A stretch of DNA of 36,264 bases, taken from positions 1 to 36,264 of the forward strand of contig LCKS01000005.1 in NCBI GenBank assembly GCA_001001555.1. The letters run 5' to 3'. Numbering within the stretch: position 1 is the stretch's first letter; each line of letters starts with the position of its first letter. Below the pieces are notes generated by a model, which saw only the letters and a program-made list of their open reading frames with translations, searched no databases and was not told the DNA's origin. This stretch comes from Candidatus Amesbacteria bacterium GW2011_GWC2_45_19. GTDB taxonomy: Bacteria > Patescibacteriota > Microgenomatia > CAZETR01 > Amesbacteraceae. The position numbers and the translations under genes are program-made. Positions 14,738-22,648 of the stretch are shown here, piece by piece.

Positions 14738-15379
14738 TTAGAGTGTGCCCAGAAAGGTAGTAATTTCGTCGGCGACGGAGGTGGTGAAATGGCGGTGAAC
14801 TTGGGTGGCGGGAACCCATTTAATTTCCTTGAAATCTCCGCCGGGTTTTGGTTGACCGCCGAGCAATTTGCAGTGGTAGTATAAGGCCACAATCCTAATT
14901 TTTTTGTCGGGAGAGTCCGGGATGAGACGGGCATGGACGAGACGGATGGGTTTAGCATTTAACCCTGTTTCATCTTTTATTGTTTTTGTTAGAGTTTTTT
15001 CAAAATCCAGGGTTTCCGTTTTTCCAGAGGGAAAGGTCCAGTGTAGATCTCTGATGTTTGGATCTGGAGATTTACGTAATCCGATAATAACTTTGTCTTT
15101 TTTGTTAACAATGCCAATCACGATGACGATTGTTGTCTTGGGTTTAGTTTGGGATAACAGTGAATAGTAAAGTTTGAGAATTTTATTGGCATCAGAGTCA
15201 TTGATCCCTTCATCTCCCACTCTTTTGGTCGACGTTTTTTGAGATTGAACAAAATGTTCTATCATTTCTCGAAGTATTTCCGATCGAGAACGCTTGAATT
15301 TTATTTGCAGGTGGTTTAAAAGATTCAACGTTTCTTTAGGAAGAGAAAAAGCGGTAACCAGGCTTTTTTGGGATTTCAT
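14738..15379 (-). CDS. Ribbon-helix-helix / Nudix fusion, predicted transcription factor
   Basis: A 213-residue protein with two parts. Residues about 5-48 are a ribbon-helix-helix DNA-binding domain: strand 'S-L-V-T-A-F-S-L-P' followed by two helices with 'R-S-R-S-E-I-L-R-E-M-I-E-H-F'. Residues about 80-213 are a Nudix fold. The Nudix box (about 119-140) is degenerate: the expected R-E-U-x-E-E is K-T-I-K-D-E, and the upstream Glu of the G-x5-E part is not in place, while 'D-E-T-G-L' remains. This suggests a ligand-sensing rather than hydrolysing domain, by analogy with the known NrtR regulators (Nudix plus winged helix), but with a different DNA-binding domain. A perfect dyad covers its own promoter. 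It is divergent from the ATP-grasp genes. Confidence 0.85.
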   Translation of the reverse strand: MKSQKSLVTAFSLPKETLNLLNHLQIKFKRSRSEILREMIEHFVQSQKTSTKRVGDEGINDSDANKILKLYYSLLSQTKPKTTIVIVIGIVNKKDKVIIGLRKSPDPNIRDLHWTFPSGKTETLDFEKTLTKTIKDETGLNAKPIRLVHARLIPDSPDKKIRIVALYYHCKLLGGQPKPGGDFKEIKWVPATQVHRHFTTSVADEITTFLGTL

Positions 15380-15415
15380 TATAAATCATTATAACTGATT
15401 TATAACTATTGTCAA
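15380..15415 (-). promoter_or_regulatory. Autoregulatory operator and promoter of the RHH-Nudix gene
   Basis: TATAAATCA and TGATTTATA form a perfect 9-bp inverted repeat with a 7-base spacer (15380-15404), beginning one base upstream of the ATG. On the minus strand TTGACA (15410-15415), a 16-base spacer and TATAAT (15388-15393) form a consensus promoter whose -10 lies inside the dyad. TTATAA units repeat at 10-11-base spacing (15379, 15389, 15400), as expected for ribbon-helix-helix dimers bound side by side. The predicted +1 is at the start codon. Confidence 0.75.
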
Positions 15416-15534
15416 CAAAAGTTAGTGAAATCATCAAATTTTGTTATTTGCGCACAAAATCCATAAAAAAAAGCTAATCATGGCCCATAAAAAATTTGAC
15501 ATGGTTTATATTATTCTGCACACTTTTGTTAGAA

Positions 15535-16500
15535 ATGAAAAAGTTTATGAAAAACATTTGCGTTTTGTATAACAAACCGGAAAATATTTCTGACGAGTCT
15601 GATTTGGACACGCAAAATTCAGCGATAAGTATTTGCGGGGAGTTAAATACTGCGGGTTATGACGCGCAATTATTAGGAATTTCTACGGCCGAAGTTGATC
15701 AGGTGCAAAAAATTAAGGCGGATTTAGTTTTTAATGTGGTGGAGTGGAGCGGGGTGAAATGGAAGTTTGCGGTCGGGGCGATCAGGGAATTGGAGCGGTG
15801 CGGTTTGCCCTTTACGGGGTCGGGCAGCCGGGGTTTTAAAATATCGGCAGATAAAATATTGATGAAAAAGGAAATGGCCAAGCATAAAATTTCAACTCCA
15901 CAATTAAAATTTCCGGCGATTGTCAAGCCAGCCTATGAGCATTGTGGGATTGGGATTGGGCAAAATAGCATAGTGAACAGTGGACAAGAATTAGAGAATA
16001 GGGCTGATGAATTAAGAAAAAAGTACCGGCAACCGGTGATTGCTGAAGAGTTTATCGATGGGCGGGAATTGCAAGTGACAGTGCTGGAGAAAAATGGCCG
16101 GCCGTGGGTGTTGCCGGCGGCGGAAGTGGTGTTTGATAAACCGGGGACGGTGTTGTCCTATGAAATGAAATGGGTGGAGGAATCGCCAGAATATGATCAG
16201 GCTGGAATGGAACCAGCTGTCCTAAACTCAAATCTCAAATCTCAAATCTCAAAAGTGGCCCAAACATGTTATTTGAAATTAGGGGGAAGAGATTATCCCC
16301 GATTAGACTTGCGGGTGAGAGGCGGTGAAATTTTTGTGTTGGAGATAAATAATAATCCAGGAGTAGATTGGGATATAGACTCGGGGATGGGCATGTCTGC
16401 GCGACTGGCCGGATTTAAAACTTATGGAGAACTTCTGACCCATATTGTGGAAAACGCTTATTTAAGGTTTGCAGAAATTCATGACGCCAATTTCCTTTGA
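15535..16500 (+). CDS. ATP-grasp ligase, D-Ala-D-Ala ligase-like (first of two)
   Basis: A 321-residue ATP-grasp enzyme, the class that joins a carboxylate to an amine through an acyl-phosphate. Seen in order: N-terminal domain 'I-C-V-L-Y-N-K-P-E', 'L-V-F-N-V-V-E-W-S-G' (about 66), 'L-P-F-T-G-S-G' (about 93), ATP-binding 'P-A-I-V-K-P-A-Y-E-H-C-G-I-G-I-G' (about 122), 'A-E-E-F-I-D-G-R-E-L' (about 167) and the metal-binding 'R-L-D-L-R-V' and 'V-L-E-I-N-N-N-P-G' near the end. The order is that of Ddl-type ligases, but the true substrate is unknown. An in-frame TTG at 15496 is part of a TTGACA and is not a likely start; ATG 15535 or 15547 is. A 7-base tandem repeat lies inside at 16227-16254. The end overlaps the second ligase by 20 bases. 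Confidence 0.85.
   Translation: MKKFMKNICVLYNKPENISDESDLDTQNSAISICGELNTAGYDAQLLGISTAEVDQVQKIKADLVFNVVEWSGVKWKFAVGAIRELERCGLPFTGSGSRGFKISADKILMKKEMAKHKISTPQLKFPAIVKPAYEHCGIGIGQNSIVNSGQELENRADELRKKYRQPVIAEEFIDGRELQVTVLEKNGRPWVLPAAEVVFDKPGTVLSYEMKWVEESPEYDQAGMEPAVLNSNLKSQISKVAQTCYLKLGGRDYPRLDLRVRGGEIFVLEINNNPGVDWDIDSGMGMSARLAGFKTYGELLTHIVENAYLRFAEIHDANFL
16227..16254 (+). repeat. Tandem 7-base repeat (4 copies) inside the first ATP-grasp gene
   Basis: CTCAAAT is repeated three times in a row with a fourth copy ending CTCAAAA. It encodes part of a surface-type segment (N-S-N-L-K-S-Q-I-S-K). As 7 is not a multiple of 3, gain or loss of one copy would shift the frame of the ligase. Confidence 0.85.
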
Positions 16501-17536
16501 TTATCCGATCAGTATAGCGATTTTGTATTACGACGGGGAAGCCGAAGACCTGAAGGACACGCAAAACGCGGCCCGGGGATTGGAGGAAGCTCTAGAAGAG
16601 CAAGGGCATATGGTGAGAACTTTGCAGGTAACGGAAAAAAATTGGCGCAAAGCGGTGAAATTGCCCGGCCAGGTGGTTTTTAATTTTGTGGAGGATGAAA
16701 CTTGGGAATTGTACACTAAAGTGGGATTGCGGCTGGAGGAGCTGGGCCGGGCGCAGATGGGGCATGACATACCCTGTTTTAAGTATGTAACGAAAAAGGC
16801 CCGGGTGAAAAGACGAATGAAACGGTTGGGAATTTCCACTCCCGGTTTCAGGATCTTTAACCGCCGGTCGAGAGTTTCTCAGGTGCGGGGACTGGAATAT
16901 CCGCTGATTGTCAAACCCTCTGGGCAACATGCCAGCATTGGTATATCCCAAGACTCGGTGGTAATTGACCAGAACGAACTACAGGATCGGGTGAAATATT
17001 TGTTTAAGCATTTCCCGGGTGAAGTGACAGCCGAAGAATTTATTGATGGGCGGGAGATTCATGTGACGGTAATTGGCAATGGAAGAAAGGCAGTGGCTCT
17101 CCCCTACTGTGAAATTTCTTTTGGTGGAGAATTTAAGGACAACTGGGATGTATATACTTACGATGCCAAATGGGACGAAAAATCCTGGGAATATTGGGGG
17201 GCGCGGGCGTCTGCCCCGGTAAAAATGAGCCGGAAACTGGAGAGAAAAATAGAGAGGTTGGCTCTGGCCGCCTACCGGGCTTTCGGTTGCCGGGACATAG
17301 CCCGGATGGATATCCGGGTAGACATGCGGAGCCGGGCCTACATAGTGGATATAAATATGAATCCCAGCTTGAATTATTATGATACCCAGGACGCGACCGT
17401 GAAATCGGTGGAGGCCCAGGGGTGGACGTACGGTGAATTTATTGAGACACTGGTGGCCATCACTTATAAGAGAGTCTACGGCCGGTTGCCGGACCGGGTA
17501 CGGGAAAGACACTTTTTGCTGGCGGCGCCCATATGA
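16481..17536 (+). CDS. ATP-grasp ligase, D-Ala-D-Ala ligase-like (second of two)
   Basis: A 351-residue ATP-grasp paralogue of the gene before it. It has 'I-A-I-L-Y-Y-D-G-E-A-E-D' at the N-terminus, 'V-V-F-N-F-V-E-D' (about 66), ATP-binding 'P-L-I-V-K-P-S-G-Q-H-A-S-I-G-I' (about 141), 'A-E-E-F-I-D-G-R-E-I-H-V-T-V' (about 184) and 'A-R-M-D-I-R-V' with 'Y-I-V-D-I-N-M-N-P-S' near the end, where Asp replaces the Glu of the usual E-x-N metal site. The central domain is more basic than in the first ligase. The ATG at 16481 lies 20 bases inside the upstream gene. Two adjacent paralogous ligases suggest two successive condensation steps or a heteromer. Confidence 0.85.
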   Translation: MTPISFDYPISIAILYYDGEAEDLKDTQNAARGLEEALEEQGHMVRTLQVTEKNWRKAVKLPGQVVFNFVEDETWELYTKVGLRLEELGRAQMGHDIPCFKYVTKKARVKRRMKRLGISTPGFRIFNRRSRVSQVRGLEYPLIVKPSGQHASIGISQDSVVIDQNELQDRVKYLFKHFPGEVTAEEFIDGREIHVTVIGNGRKAVALPYCEISFGGEFKDNWDVYTYDAKWDEKSWEYWGARASAPVKMSRKLERKIERLALAAYRAFGCRDIARMDIRVDMRSRAYIVDINMNPSLNYYDTQDATVKSVEAQGWTYGEFIETLVAITYKRVYGRLPDRVRERHFLLAAPI

Positions 17537-17577: not shown

Positions 17578-17916
17578 TTGACGGTGGATTTGTATGACTG
17601 TGATCTGGCCAAAATTTCCGATAGAGAACACATCAGAAATTATGTAATAAAACTGTGCGATGAGGTGATTGATATGAAGAGATATGGGGAACCATTGATT
17701 GAGCATTTTGGACACGAAAACCCTATAACTTCCGGATATTCTCTGGTTCAGCTGGTTGAAACCAGTTGCGTGTCCAGGCATTTTTCGGAGTATAAAAAAT
17801 CTTGCTATATTAATATATTTTCTTGTAAATGGTTTGATGCCAAGAAAGCGGCAGAATTTACCAGAAACTGGTTTGGGGCTAAGACGGTAAAAACAGCTTT
17901 GCAGTCGAGATTTTGA
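17578..17916 (+). CDS. SpeD-like (AdoMet decarboxylase family) protein with altered processing site
   Basis: A protein of 112 residues from a TTG start. It matches a CPR-type branch of the SpeD/SpeH family: 'V-D-L-Y-D-C-D', 'M-K-R-Y-G-E-P-L-I-E-H-F-G-H', 'S-L-V-Q-L-V-E-T-S' and 'Y-I-N-I-F-S-C-K-W-F-D-A-K-K-A-A-E-F'. Pyruvoyl enzymes of this family cut themselves at Glu-Ser in E-S-H; here the site reads E-T-S, so the processing residue would be Thr or the next Ser, or processing is lost. Family-like sequence (D-Q-F-G-Q-E-L) continues upstream of the TTG in frame back to a TAA at 17542-17544 with no ATG or GTG, so the start is unclear and an N-terminal loss is possible. The end overlaps the C39-like gene by 38 bases. 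Confidence 0.7.
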   Translation: MTVDLYDCDLAKISDREHIRNYVIKLCDEVIDMKRYGEPLIEHFGHENPITSGYSLVQLVETSCVSRHFSEYKKSCYINIFSCKWFDAKKAAEFTRNWFGAKTVKTALQSRF

Positions 17917-18478
17917 AATTTGGTAAGTATTTTGGATCACGGGCCAGAACTAGCATTAGGCGGTTGTTCCAGCTTTTGACTAATTTAAAAGTCTTAATGC
18001 GGCCAATTTTTGTTTTCCGCCTTTTATATTCGAAGTCGTACCATCTATCTAAGAAATCCTTCCAGTCGTATGATTTTTTGGCGCCCGACGCAGAGTCAAA
18101 AACAGTAAGTCGGCGATTGCTGGCGGAGTACTTGGCTACGGCAGTATAGTGACCTGATTCTTCGTGTGGACTAAAATCCGCTTTTAGGTCGTAGAGATAA
18201 TCTACGATAACGGCTCTAGGCTTTGATGGACTGGATTTGAGGGCGTTTTGCAGATGGGTGAGAGTAGTCCACTCCACGGCCAGGACTGAAATCCTCAGAC
18301 TATTGGCGGCTCTGATCAGCTTGGCCGGGGAAGTACCATTGCGGGTGGTGCGGCACAATTTAACAAGCTCCCTCAAAGGCTTTTTGATACCGAGAATTTC
18401 CAAGGCGGTTTTTAAGGATGCAGGCCCGCAGGTGTTGCTGTCTGGCTGGAGGTAGGTTTTAGCTTTGCTTCTGCCCAT
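17879..18478 (-). CDS. C39/papain-fold cysteine peptidase-like protein
   Basis: A 199-residue protein with the papain-like peptidase order. 'Y-L-Q-P-D-S-N-T-C-G-P-A-S-L' gives the oxyanion Gln11 and nucleophile Cys17, 'E-S-G-H-Y-T-A-V' gives His110, and 'T-V-F-D-S-A-S-G' gives Asp128. This fits the C39 family, which trims double-Gly leader peptides, and related single-domain peptidases. There is no ABC transporter part and no signal peptide. A TAAAAT -10 lies 6 bases before the ATG at 18478. Its 3' end overlaps the SpeD-like gene tail to tail. Next to two ATP-grasp ligases it could process a small peptide, but this is inference. Confidence 0.8.
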   Translation of the reverse strand: MGRSKAKTYLQPDSNTCGPASLKTALEILGIKKPLRELVKLCRTTRNGTSPAKLIRAANSLRISVLAVEWTTLTHLQNALKSSPSKPRAVIVDYLYDLKADFSPHEESGHYTAVAKYSASNRRLTVFDSASGAKKSYDWKDFLDRWYDFEYKRRKTKIGRIKTFKLVKSWNNRLMLVLARDPKYLPNFKISTAKLFLPS

Positions 18479-18528
18479 AGTAGGGCTATTTTACTCTCAA
18501 ACCTGGGTTTTATCTAGTCTCGTACGAC

Positions 18529-18555
18529 AATGTTCCACCTAAGAGGTGGAACATT
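18529..18555. repeat. Perfect 12-bp hairpin without T-run
   Basis: AATGTTCCACCT and AGGTGGAACATT pair perfectly around the 3-base loop AAG. It stands between the divergent ends of the C39-like promoter region and the acetyltransferase gene. No T-run follows on either strand, so it is not a standard terminator. Its ends (AATG...CATTAC) resemble the hairpin at 13582-13622. Confidence 0.7.
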
Positions 18556-18626
18556 ACTCCCACCACGAATTCATATATTTATGATACCACAGTTTTGTCA
18601 AACTGAGCGGAACATACAAAGAGATT

Positions 18627-19565
18627 TCAAAGCGATTTTCTTAAGGCCACTGCAACTGTAACGTCTTTTTCAGATAAGCTTTCTACTAAAGCAACTTCAG
18701 AAAAATTTCTTTTTTGAAAAAAACTCCACGAGGCAAAGTTGGGAAAATACGGACCAGTACATACCCAAGCAAAGATATTTTTTAAATTTTCTTCTTTGGC
18801 GATTGCTTCGGTATTAGCAAGTAACAATTCAGCCGGGGTTTGACCAGATTGATTTTTGATACTTCTGAAGGCTGGGTCAACCGCAATCTCGTCAACTTCT
18901 ATAAATGATCCCTTGTATGAATCCTGGTCTTGTTTAGAAAACCATAAATATCCAGATGGTTTGTGAGTTTTTGGACCATCTGTGATTCTGATATCTCTGA
19001 CAATTTTTTCCCCGTGCGGTCCGTATATGGTAATGAAAGCCTCGTTGTTTTTATGCCGTAATAGAAACAGTTTTTTTCGCCCTTTTGGAGTTTCCACAGA
19101 ACGGCTTGCTTGACCTGGTGGAGTTTGCCAGACTTTTCCCGATTTGAAATCAGAATTTCTTCTCACTATTTTTAATCTGCTCCAACCCACTACTTCACCC
19201 TTATCATCTTGAACAACCACCATTTTGTAATAACAGTCTTGGTCTGTATCCGGAGACAAGCTTTGGTCGATGTAGGAGTTAATTTTTTTAGGATCATCTG
19301 TTCCAAACAGCCATCCTTTTGAAACAGCCCAGGGATATTCTGTAGCTGATGTTGGAGAAAGTGGATCGATCATTTTTCCAGTCCTTGGATTTAAGTCGTG
19401 TGGTATGGAGCAGAGGTAATATGTTTTAAGTATTCCAGTCCTAATTTTAGTCAATTCTTCCAAATGGGTGTCTATATCTAAAATTCGAACTTGATAATTT
19501 ATTGGCTTCAATCTTTCGGGTACTCCTCCTGGTAAAAGTGGTAAGGATACAAATTTCTCACTCAT
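18627..19565 (-). CDS. GNAT-family acetyltransferase-like protein
   Basis: A 312-residue protein. The C-terminal third has GNAT features: '[15 protein letters not shown]' (strand 4), followed after '[16 protein letters not shown]' by a helix in the acetyl-CoA position, and '[12 protein letters not shown]' at the end. The usual Q/R-x-x-G-x-G/A loop is altered. The N-terminal two thirds show no recognisable domain. Start: ATG at 19565 overlaps the gyrA stop by 8 bases; a TTG four codons upstream is less likely. It is the last gene of the gyrA operon and is more AT-rich than gyrA, so it may be a later addition. Confidence 0.7.
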
Positions 19566-22032
19566 TTTCTTTTTCAATACAAGTTACGGCGGCGACGGAG
19601 TCGCCTTTTTTGGCAAAGCGCATCAGAATCACTCCTTGAGTGGCCCGGCCCAAGCGGGGGATGTTTCGCAGAGGCAGTTTGATAACCTGGGCTGATTTGG
19701 CAGTCAAAATAATTTGCTCAATGGTTTCGTCGACGGAAATACAGGCCACAATTTTGCCGGTCTTGGATGTGATTTCGGCGGCTTTGACGCCTTGGCCGCC
19801 GCGTTTTTGCAAAGGCCACTGCTTGACTCCGGTCCTTTTACCCAGCCCATGTTCCATGACGATAAGCACGTCCTCAAAAGTTTTGCGGCGGCGGTCGGTG
19901 GGGGCGGATTTGGCAGAAGGAAAAACTTCCATGCCGACGACAAAATCACCGGATTTGAGGTCGATACCTCTGACCCCCGTCGTATCCCGGGCGGTGGCCC
20001 GGACGTCTTCTTCTTTAAATCTAATTGATTTGCCTTCATGGGAAACTAAAAGCACATGGTCAGAGCCGGTGGTGGGTTTAACCCATTTGAGGGCATCTCC
20101 TTTGTCTAATTTAATAGCGATTTTGCCGGACTGGCGGATAGATTCAAATTCGGAAATTTTGGTTTTTTTGATAGTTCCTAAACTGGTGACCATAAGTAGA
20201 AATTTAACACCATTTCCTTTGCCTAAAGGAAGGACGGTTTCCAATCTTTCGTCCTGTTCGATGTTAATAAGATTAACTACAGCCTGACCCTTGGACTGGC
20301 GGGAGCCTTCCGGCAGGTCGTAGGCTTTGATGCGGAAAACCCGGCCTTTATTGGTAAAGAAATAAATGTTGTCATGAGTATTGGCCGTCAAAATTTGGGC
20401 TATTTCGTCTTCTTCTTTGGTAGTCATGCCGGTGACGCCCTTGCCGCCCCGGTGCTGGGCCCGGAAAGCCGAAGGTAACTGGCGCTTGATGTAGCCGGTG
20501 GCGGTAATAGTAACTACGGTGTCTTCGGAAGGGATGAGGTCTTCTTCGGAGAACTGCCCGATCCCCTGTTTGTAAACCCGGGTGCGGCGGGCATCCCCGA
20601 ATTTTTCTTCCAACTCGGACAGTTCCTTTTTGATGACGGAGAGAATTTTGGCGGGATGGGCTAATAGATCTTCCAAGAAAGAGATAAGTTCCTTGACGGC
20701 CTGGTATTCGTCCTCGATCTTTTTGCGCTCCAGGGCCGCCAGGCGGCGCAGTTGCATATCTAAGATGGCTATGGCCTGAAGTTCGGAGAGCTGGAAGCGG
20801 TCCATCAAATTCTTCTTAGCTTCATCAGAATCTTTGGACTCTCTAATAGTTTTGATGACGGCGTCTAAGTGATCGAGGGCGATGGTCAGGCCTTCTAAAA
20901 TATGAGCCCGGGCTGTGGCAACTTTGAGGTCGTACTGAGTGCGGCGGATGATGACCGTTTGGCGGTGTCTAATATATTCAGCTAATATTTGCTTAAGCGA
21001 CAGAGTTTGGGGGGTGCCGTCGACCAGGGCCACAAAGTTGGCGGGGAATGAGGTTTGTAAAGCGGTGTGTTTGTAGAGATTATTAAGAAGGCTTTTGGGC
21101 TTGGCGTCGCGTTTGAGTTCGATAACTACGCGCATGCCGGTGCGGTCTGATTCATCCCGCAGATCGGAAATGCCGTCGATTTTCTTTTGGTGCACCAAAT
21201 CTGCAATTCTGGCCACCATTTCCGCTTTGTTGACTTGATATGGAATTTCGGTGATGACGATTTGGGACTTGCCGCTCTTGCCCTCTTCAATTTCCGCCTT
21301 TCCCCGGACGATAATTTTGCCGCGGCCGGTGGTGTACATTTCGGCAATGGCTTTAACGTCGTAAATGGATCCGTAGGTAGGGAAATCCGGCCCTTTGACA
21401 AATTGCATTAAATCCCCTACTTCGGCGTTGGGGTGATCTATTAAATATGAGATGGCGTCGACTATTTCGGACAGATTGTGGGGCGGGATTTTGGTGGCCA
21501 TACCGACGGCTATTCCGTCGGAGCCCATGAGGAGAAGGTTGGGAAGTTTGGCGGGGAGAAAATCGGGCTCTTTGAGGGTAGCGTCGAAGTTGTCGGTCAT
21601 GGAGACGGTTTCTTTTTCGATGTCGTGCATCAGCTCTTCGGAAATTTTTGACAGCTTAGCCTCCGTGTATCTCATGGCAGCCGGAGAATCGCCGTCGACG
21701 GAACCGAAGTTTCCCTGGCCATCAACCAGAGGGTAGCGCATGGAGAATTCCTGGGCCAGACGGACCATGGCGTCGTAAACCGGCATGTCGCCGTGGGGAT
21801 GATATTTACCTAAAACTTCTCCGACGATCTTGGCGCTCTTGGTATGTTTGGAAGACGCTTTGAGTCCCATGTCCCACATGGCGTACAAAATACGTCTGTG
21901 AACTGGTTTTAGTCCGTCACGGACGTTGGGCAGAGCCCGAGCGACGATGACGGACATGGCATAATCCAGAAAGTTTTTCTGCATTTCCGTGGTAATTTCC
22001 ACGGGCTGAATTTTGCCGATGTTCTGGTTCAT
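19558..22032 (-). CDS. gyrA: DNA gyrase subunit A
   Basis: An 824-residue GyrA, which with GyrB introduces negative supercoils. The N-terminal breakage-reunion domain starts '[20 protein letters not shown]' (about 16-35) and holds the catalytic Tyr122 in A-A-M-R-Y-T-E. The C-terminal beta-pinwheel contains a GyrA box variant Q-H-R-G-G-K-G (about residue 527), which supports gyrase rather than topoisomerase IV. In the quinolone pocket, the position equal to E. coli Ser83 is Met (G81-D82-M83), while Asp87 is kept. Length is normal. It is downstream of the YerC/TrpR-like gene with a 19-base gap and overlaps the acetyltransferase gene. Confidence 0.97.
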
Positions 22033-22051: not shown

Positions 22052-22612
22052 CTATTTCTTGGCTGTTTTACCAGGGGCAAATGAAGCAAAAACCTGCTTA
22101 TTAAACTCCGGCGTAAATGTCTCCCTCTTAACTACCATACTCTGTAGTATGGTAGTTATCTTTTGTTTGTGCTTGGCATCGCTGGCTTGAAGGATTTTTT
22201 CGAGCAAAAGTTGGGGCCAGTAATATTGGGAGTAACGGCGTTTGAAATTGTAACTACTGTAAGGATCGTATTTTTCCTCAAGGGAGACTTCTTTTTTTTG
22301 GGATTTTTTACGGGAGATGACAATTTTGAAACCTTCTCCGGACATGCCCAGCCAGGTGGCCACCCGGGCAATTGTTCCATAGCTAACTTTTATACTTGCT
22401 CTAATATCTTCGTATTTTTTGTTAGCGAGTAACTGTTCGGCAATTTGTAAACGTTTTGCCAACATCTCGACCTCTTGTGGAGAGAGAAGATCGGTAAGAA
22501 ATTTAGCTACCTCCTCCTCGTTTTTTAATGATTGAATAGCCTGGCAAAAAGCTAGAACTAGCTCTTGTCTTTTGTTTGGAGAAAGTTTTGAACCCCGAGA
22601 AAATTTTGCCAT
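22052..22612 (-). CDS. YerC/TrpR-like transcriptional regulator with C-terminal extension
   Basis: A 186-residue protein. Residues about 10-100 form the all-helical TrpR/YerC fold: 'F-L-T-D-L-L-S-P-Q-E-V-E-M-L-A-K-R' is the family signature and 'Y-E-D-I-R-A-S-I-K-V-S-Y-G-T-I-A-R-V' is the helix-turn-helix. The remaining 85 residues are an extension rich in Tyr, Lys and Gln of unknown role; usual YerC proteins end after the first part. The ATG at 22612 is preferred over one 12 codons upstream because the promoter and dyad lie between them. The gene is upstream of gyrA in the same direction, so it may influence gyrase expression through read-through. Confidence 0.85.
   Translation of the reverse strand: MAKFSRGSKLSPNKRQELVLAFCQAIQSLKNEEEVAKFLTDLLSPQEVEMLAKRLQIAEQLLANKKYEDIRASIKVSYGTIARVATWLGMSGEGFKIVISRKKSQKKEVSLEEKYDPYSSYNFKRRYSQYYWPQLLLEKILQASDAKHKQKITTILQSMVVKRETFTPEFNKQVFASFAPGKTAKK
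22130..22157. promoter_or_regulatory. 11-bp inverted repeat inside the regulator gene, operator-like
   Basis: AACTACCATAC and GTATGGTAGTT are perfect arms around TCTGTA. The half-site TAGTATGGTA differs from the TAGTATTGTA of the upstream operator (22620-22639) by one base. It could be a second binding site about 480 bases into the gene, before gyrA. Confidence 0.4.
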
Positions 22613-22619
22613 TATAACT

Positions 22620-22648
22620 ACAATACTACCTAGTATTGTAAATAACAA
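22620..22648 (-). promoter_or_regulatory. Promoter and dyad operator of the YerC/TrpR-like gene
   Basis: ACAATACTA and TAGTATTGT are a perfect 9-bp inverted repeat with 2 bases between (22620-22639). On the minus strand TTGTTA (22643-22648), a 17-base spacer and TATTGT (22620-22625) form a promoter, with 7 bases to the ATG. The dyad covers the spacer and the -10, which points to autorepression by the TrpR-like protein. Confidence 0.65.

Follow-up and report, generated by a model that had tools for sequence, protein, structure and literature searches.

The window examined here (i.e., the whole analysed stretch of 36,264 nt of contig LCKS01000005.1 from Candidatus Amesbacteria bacterium GW2011_GWC2_45_19) encodes a protein in which an N-terminal ribbon-helix-helix (RHH) domain is joined to a degenerate Nudix domain. 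We consider it probable that this RHH-Nudix protein is a transcriptional autorepressor, in which the RHH domain would bind tandem half-sites in the promoter of its own gene, while the pseudo-Nudix domain, presumably devoid of hydrolytic activity, would sense a ligand. An earlier note on this DNA had proposed an RHH-based sensor-regulator that controls its own expression and possibly that of the divergent ATP-grasp genes. The conservation of the fusion in five genomes and the recurrence of phased repeats upstream of it are in keeping with the first part of this proposal (with autoregulation as the likely consequence), but not with control of the ATP-grasp genes.

The two-domain architecture that had been read from the translation was confirmed, since the window protein exceeded the curated Pfam cut-offs for both RHH_1 (PF01402; 24.6 vs. 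20.5 bits) and NUDIX (PF00293; 35.7 vs. 21.1 bits). Relatives were sampled from ~750 distinct Patescibacteria genomes (with G-labels denoting genomes, L-labels denoting loci, and G000 being the 814-kb genome of the window). Searches of these genomes recovered full-length fusions in four more genomes, bringing the number to five, and both domains were matched by each of these proteins (RHH_1 at E ≤ 0.1 in each). Identities to the window protein amounted to 72% in G005, 63% in G011, 42–43% in G253 (from another family), and 36% for L070 in G490 (from another class). The genome of the window is congeneric with Candidatus Amesbacteria GW2011_GWA1_47_20, and the equivalent locus was present in G005 and on contig LCOA01000009.1. 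Within the window's own family the fusion was found in three of 14 genomes, and one scan across all genome contigs, aimed at close relatives only, returned the two other Amesbacteria, so that further fusions beyond Patescibacteria are possible. The RHH-Nudix fusion is rare and patchy among the sampled Patescibacteria. No relative was found in the phages searched and none was confirmed in 144 viral contig stretches, while matches in the plasmids searched were limited to the Nudix part (24–31% identity). Loci L049 and L051 were rejected as relatives, as they matched the profile with an RHH domain only and by eye resembled RHH antitoxins beside PIN-type toxins.

The catalytic box of the window protein reads FPSGKTETLDFEKTLTKTIKDETGL, in which the REUxEE core is replaced by KTIKDE (as had been claimed) and the stretch from the G to this core is one residue shorter than canonical. 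Across the five fusions the core reads KTIKDE, NTIHNE, KTIRQE, KKIKEE, and EKIVNE. None of the five hence retains the Arg or the first catalytic Glu (the latter replaced by T, T, T, K, and K), and the second Glu is present in only one of them, with a D in the window protein. The GX5EX7REUXEEXGU signature of active Nudix hydrolases, with its catalytic glutamates, was found in none of the fusions, whereas the R-E pair was intact in most stand-alone Patescibacteria relatives of the same box table. Comparable substitutions are known from AraR, in which two or three catalytic Glu of the Nudix domain are replaced (PMC4666351), and hydrolysis was undetectable for MsNrtR (PMC6800001). Because similar Glu losses in NrtR/AraR thus accompany absent or presumed absent hydrolysis, the Nudix domains of the fusions likely lack hydrolytic activity.

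Phylogenetically, the Nudix domains of the five fusions were monophyletic (support 99/92; 100% of bootstrap trees), and their sister clade (96/87) consisted of four stand-alone Nudix proteins that are themselves degenerate, albeit differently, with the last Glu of REUxEE changed to Lys. On balance, we lean towards regarding the fusions as one-component regulators that make up a new family in Patescibacteria. This family would have arisen when a pseudo-Nudix sensor became attached to an RHH domain, in an event separate from the origin of the winged-helix NrtR family. Since the stand-alone sister clade is degenerate as well, the loss of catalysis would be shared with the fusion or precede it.

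Upstream of the gene, the predicted consensus promoter (TTGACA and TATAAT, separated by a 16-nt spacer) was recovered with 12/12 matches, and its –10 box lies so close to the ATG (Table 1) that the transcript is probably nearly leaderless. The perfect 9-bp dyad that the earlier note took for the operator, TATAAATCA-N7-TGATTTATA at 15380–15404, does exist and even extends to 10-bp arms. Nevertheless, a perfect 9-bp inverted repeat also arose in 300 of 5000 dinucleotide shuffles (6%) of the 167-bp AT-rich intergenic region, and the right arm was missing in L006, the nearest relative. The dyad was consequently rejected as a conserved operator. A search for further copies in the genome yielded a single site with three mismatches, which did not rise above a reversed-pattern control.

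The TTATAA units spaced 10–11 bp apart, on the other hand, are rare, with a phased TTATAA triple occurring in 0/5000 shuffles of the same intergenic region. The window half-sites GTTATAA, GTTATAA, and TTTATAA, spaced 11 and 10 bp, were equalled in 0/1000 shuffles, and the best phased 8-mer triple outscored 1000 of 1000 shuffles. The promoter at L070 carries GTTTTAC, GTTGTAC, and GTTATAC at intervals of 10 and 10 bp (0/1000 shuffles), in an array beginning at –31 from the ATG (vs. –27 in the window). When a motif was built from L070 only, the promoters of the window, L006, and L013 each scored at a level attained by 1 in 711 of the upstream regions taken as background, which L012 did not. Phased repeats were recognisable in four of the five fusions (clearly so in the window and at L070, in part at L006 and L013), three of the five loci being related by recent descent, and the autocorrelation pooled over the five promoters peaked at lag 10 (0.52 vs. 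about 0.29–0.39 elsewhere). Moreover, when both strands of 466 kb of DNA were scanned, scores of at least 19 appeared almost only before RHH-Nudix genes, the exception being locus L102, which had been selected for containing TTATAA pairs. With the caveat that half-site motif and spacing were chosen after the data had been seen, this suggests that the recurring, putative operator consists of tandem ~7-bp half-sites at 10–11 bp rather than of the 25-bp dyad.

Throughout the 814-kb genome, TTATAA-N4/5-TTATAA occurred in the fusion promoter and in one other place, i.e., L102 (G000:C4:48446-48461). At L102 the pair, TTATAACATGTTATAA, immediately precedes an AbrB-like and Doc/Fic-like gene pair. It was rejected as a regulon site given this position directly before an AbrB-Doc-type module, and is probably the own operator of that toxin-antitoxin module.

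In the mechanism we propose, the N-terminal RHH domain would dimerise and enter its beta ribbon into the tandem GTTATA(A/C)-type half-sites, whose spacing of 10–11 bp would align the RHH dimers on one face of the DNA. From the spacer through the –10 box to the start, the gene's own strong promoter would be covered by such dimers, so that RNA polymerase would be blocked and the promoter kept off. The C-terminal Nudix domain, which has lost glutamates needed for hydrolysis, would act as a ligand-binding sensor, and binding of the ligand would alter RHH spacing and hence the affinity for DNA. The most likely ligand would be a nucleoside phosphate from among the kinds of compound that MutT-type enzymes use as substrates. 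In a profile search, the best solved structure for the Nudix domain was 3ees, an RNA pyrophosphohydrolase from Bdellovibrio (E 4.5e-7), and the PDB matches at E ≤ 0.01 were led by MutT/RppH types, with SoNrtR (3gz5/3gz6/3gz8) not among them. With MutT and RNA-pyrophosphohydrolase types as the closest matches to this domain and SoNrtR absent from the list, ADP-ribose receives no special support as the ligand.

Several observations weigh against this autorepressor. The repeats at L012 are weak (best scores met by 1.9–14% of AT-rich background regions), the self-repeat test alone was not significant in L006 and L013 (p about 0.17), and half-site 2 contains the –10 box (TATAAT/TATACT), which is the source of part of the signal. 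A second operator was not found in the 814-kb genome with the patterns tried. Structurally, an AlphaFold2 model built from three sequences reached a mean predicted local distance difference test score of 49 and was not used for fold search; a linker helix at residues 61–76 appeared in this low-confidence model. Finally, all five fusions keep the third Glu of REUxEE, and at L013 the second is present as well (KKIKEE). Judging from these residues, the fusions could still bind metal, and some activity is possible.

The same glutamates speak for an alternative that we nonetheless deem unlikely, i.e., that the protein, despite its altered box, is a Nudix hydrolase that has remained active and uses the RHH domain to repress its own gene, in the manner of the enzyme PutA. 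Among the stand-alone relatives, too, there are some without the second Glu (REIRSE, REVRCE) and a few without the first (L044, L036), and these proteins may be enzymes. However, the first Glu and the Arg have disappeared together from all five fusions, in a helix one residue shorter, and among the boxes readable by script, stand-alone proteins outside the degenerate sister clade never lacked both.

Two Ddl-like ATP-grasp genes lie in tandem at 15440–17536, divergent from the fusion gene. As this divergent layout occurs in both G000 and G005, with start codons about 160 bp or less apart, the protein might instead be an NrtR-style metabolic regulator of the ATP-grasp pair, perhaps with a wider regulon, for which the self-operator would be a side effect. 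This we regard as improbable, since an ATP-grasp match (at 1e-20) was found in 12 of 14 family genomes, including most of those without the regulator, and the upstream block in such relatives was similar, ending in TTGACA (by eye). Moreover, in G253 and G490 the fusion has no ATP-grasp gene as a neighbour, and the half-sites are confined to the regulator's own promoter. The earlier suggestion of ATP-grasp control is therefore not supported, and the divergent layout is most plausibly a matter of gene order rather than regulation. No ATP-grasp match was obtained in G011, where only 73 bp of contig remain upstream of the fusion (a possible assembly gap). Elsewhere, L013 adjoins a secA-like gene and L070 a CsoR-like gene (names by eye), a XerC-like recombinase gene is convergent with the fusion at all three Amesbacteria loci, and no nicotinamide adenine dinucleotide (NAD) gene was recognised adjoining the fusion loci read.

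We regard it as very improbable that the protein is an antitoxin-like RHH autorepressor acting alone, with a Nudix part that binds another protein instead of a small molecule. Its RHH domain is close to antitoxin RHH domains (EndoAI 4me7, E 0.006; RelB family, matched by one fusion member) and antitoxins typically autoregulate over repeats, but no toxin gene was recognised beside the fusion in the readable flanks and the Nudix domain is conserved across its full length.

Compared with known systems, the preferred autorepressor would share with RelB-type antitoxins the placement of RHH dimers on repeated half-sites along one DNA face at the own promoter, but in place of their toxin-binding tail it carries a Nudix domain at the C-terminus, and a toxin partner was not recognised. 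With NikR and MetJ it would share the coupling of an RHH domain to ligand sensing, although neither of these carries a Nudix domain (the nickel domain of NikR is ACT-like, and the ligand of MetJ is S-adenosylmethionine). MutT and 3ees, to which its Nudix domain is nearest by profile among solved structures, have an intact catalytic box and no DNA-binding domain. For RelB itself, RHH dimers on repeats along one DNA face at its own promoter have been described (PMC2812701).

The fusion is best read as convergent with NrtR/AraR. As in NrtR, the sensor is predicted to be a Nudix domain in which the box is disrupted and catalysis presumably absent, and autoregulation would take place at the own promoter, where NrtR likewise has a site through which it autoregulates (PMC6800001). 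However, NrtR consists of an N-terminal Nudix domain followed by a C-terminal winged helix, whereas the fusion has an RHH domain followed by Nudix, ends at residue 213, has phased direct half-sites, and is nearer to MutT types by profile. BtAraR, the arabinose-responsive member of the NrtR family, likewise has a pseudo-Nudix ligand domain that has lost two or three catalytic Glu (PMC4666351), but uses a winged helix-turn-helix and controls a sugar-catabolism regulon. SoNrtR was the one transcription factor that a term search traced in the structure table of a review of the Nudix clan (PMC5389931), and open-access full texts yielded incidental co-mentions of RHH and Nudix only, so that an earlier description elsewhere is possible. 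If our reading is true, a dead Nudix enzyme has been turned into a gene switch for a second time, the Nudix regulators of the surveyed literature all using a winged helix. It would also provide a predicted ligand-sensing regulator together with its operator in the ultrasmall Patescibacteria, of which gene regulation is little known.

Table 1. Features of the RHH-Nudix gene and its promoter in the window, with the box of the stand-alone sister clade.
Feature	Position	Strand	Remarks
RHH-Nudix protein	14738..15379	-	213 amino acids, ATG at 15379; full length also in L006/L011, L007/L012, L013, L070
RHH_1 (CopG-type) domain	15248..15349	-	PF01402, residues 11-44; beta strand near SLVTAFSLP
Linker, ~residues 45-83	15131..15247	-	DANKILKLYY region with predicted helix; conserved D63, I67, L68, Y71
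Nudix domain, residues 83-198	14786..15133	-	PF00293 match; catalytic box degenerate
Degenerate Nudix box region GKTETLDFEKTLTKTIKDETGL	14958..15026	-	REUxEE = KTIKDE; from sequence, compared with relatives
C-terminal tail FTTSVADEITTFLGTL, conserved	14738..14785	-	common to stand-alone Nudix relatives (FTTDLDPxVAKFL)
-35 box TTGACA	15410..15415	-	promoter match
-10 box TATAAT	15388..15393	-	ends 8 nt before ATG
Half-site 1 GTTATAA	15400..15406	-	
Half-site 2 GTTATAA	15389..15395	-	overlaps -10 box
Half-site 3 TTTATAA	15379..15385	-	overlaps first ATG base and likely transcription start
Perfect dyad, 10-bp arms, 7-bp centre	15379..15405	.	arms supplied by half-sites 1 and 3; dyad arrangement not conserved
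Sister-clade members L071, L072, L073, L014			PGG.P.Y..DLE..L..EI..KTG; three families

The conserved upstream block of the ATP-grasp genes reads ACATGG..ATAAAAAA.TTGACA, with a GCGCACAAA-type element tens of bp farther upstream (in several relatives, by eye). Region 17879–19577, which separates the ATP-grasp pair from a gyrA-like gene, encodes C39-peptidase-like and GNAT-domain proteins that are possibly linked to the pair. A perfect inverted repeat with 13-bp arms is located at 22129–22158, within the open reading frame 22052–22648 and some 100 bp upstream of the gyrA-like gene. Elsewhere among the Nudix proteins, loci L077, L086, and L093 (family f108) encode proteins of ~345 amino acids that combine an N-terminal half similar to a HAM1/RdgB-type NTP pyrophosphatase (by eye) with a C-terminal half that is a Nudix domain.
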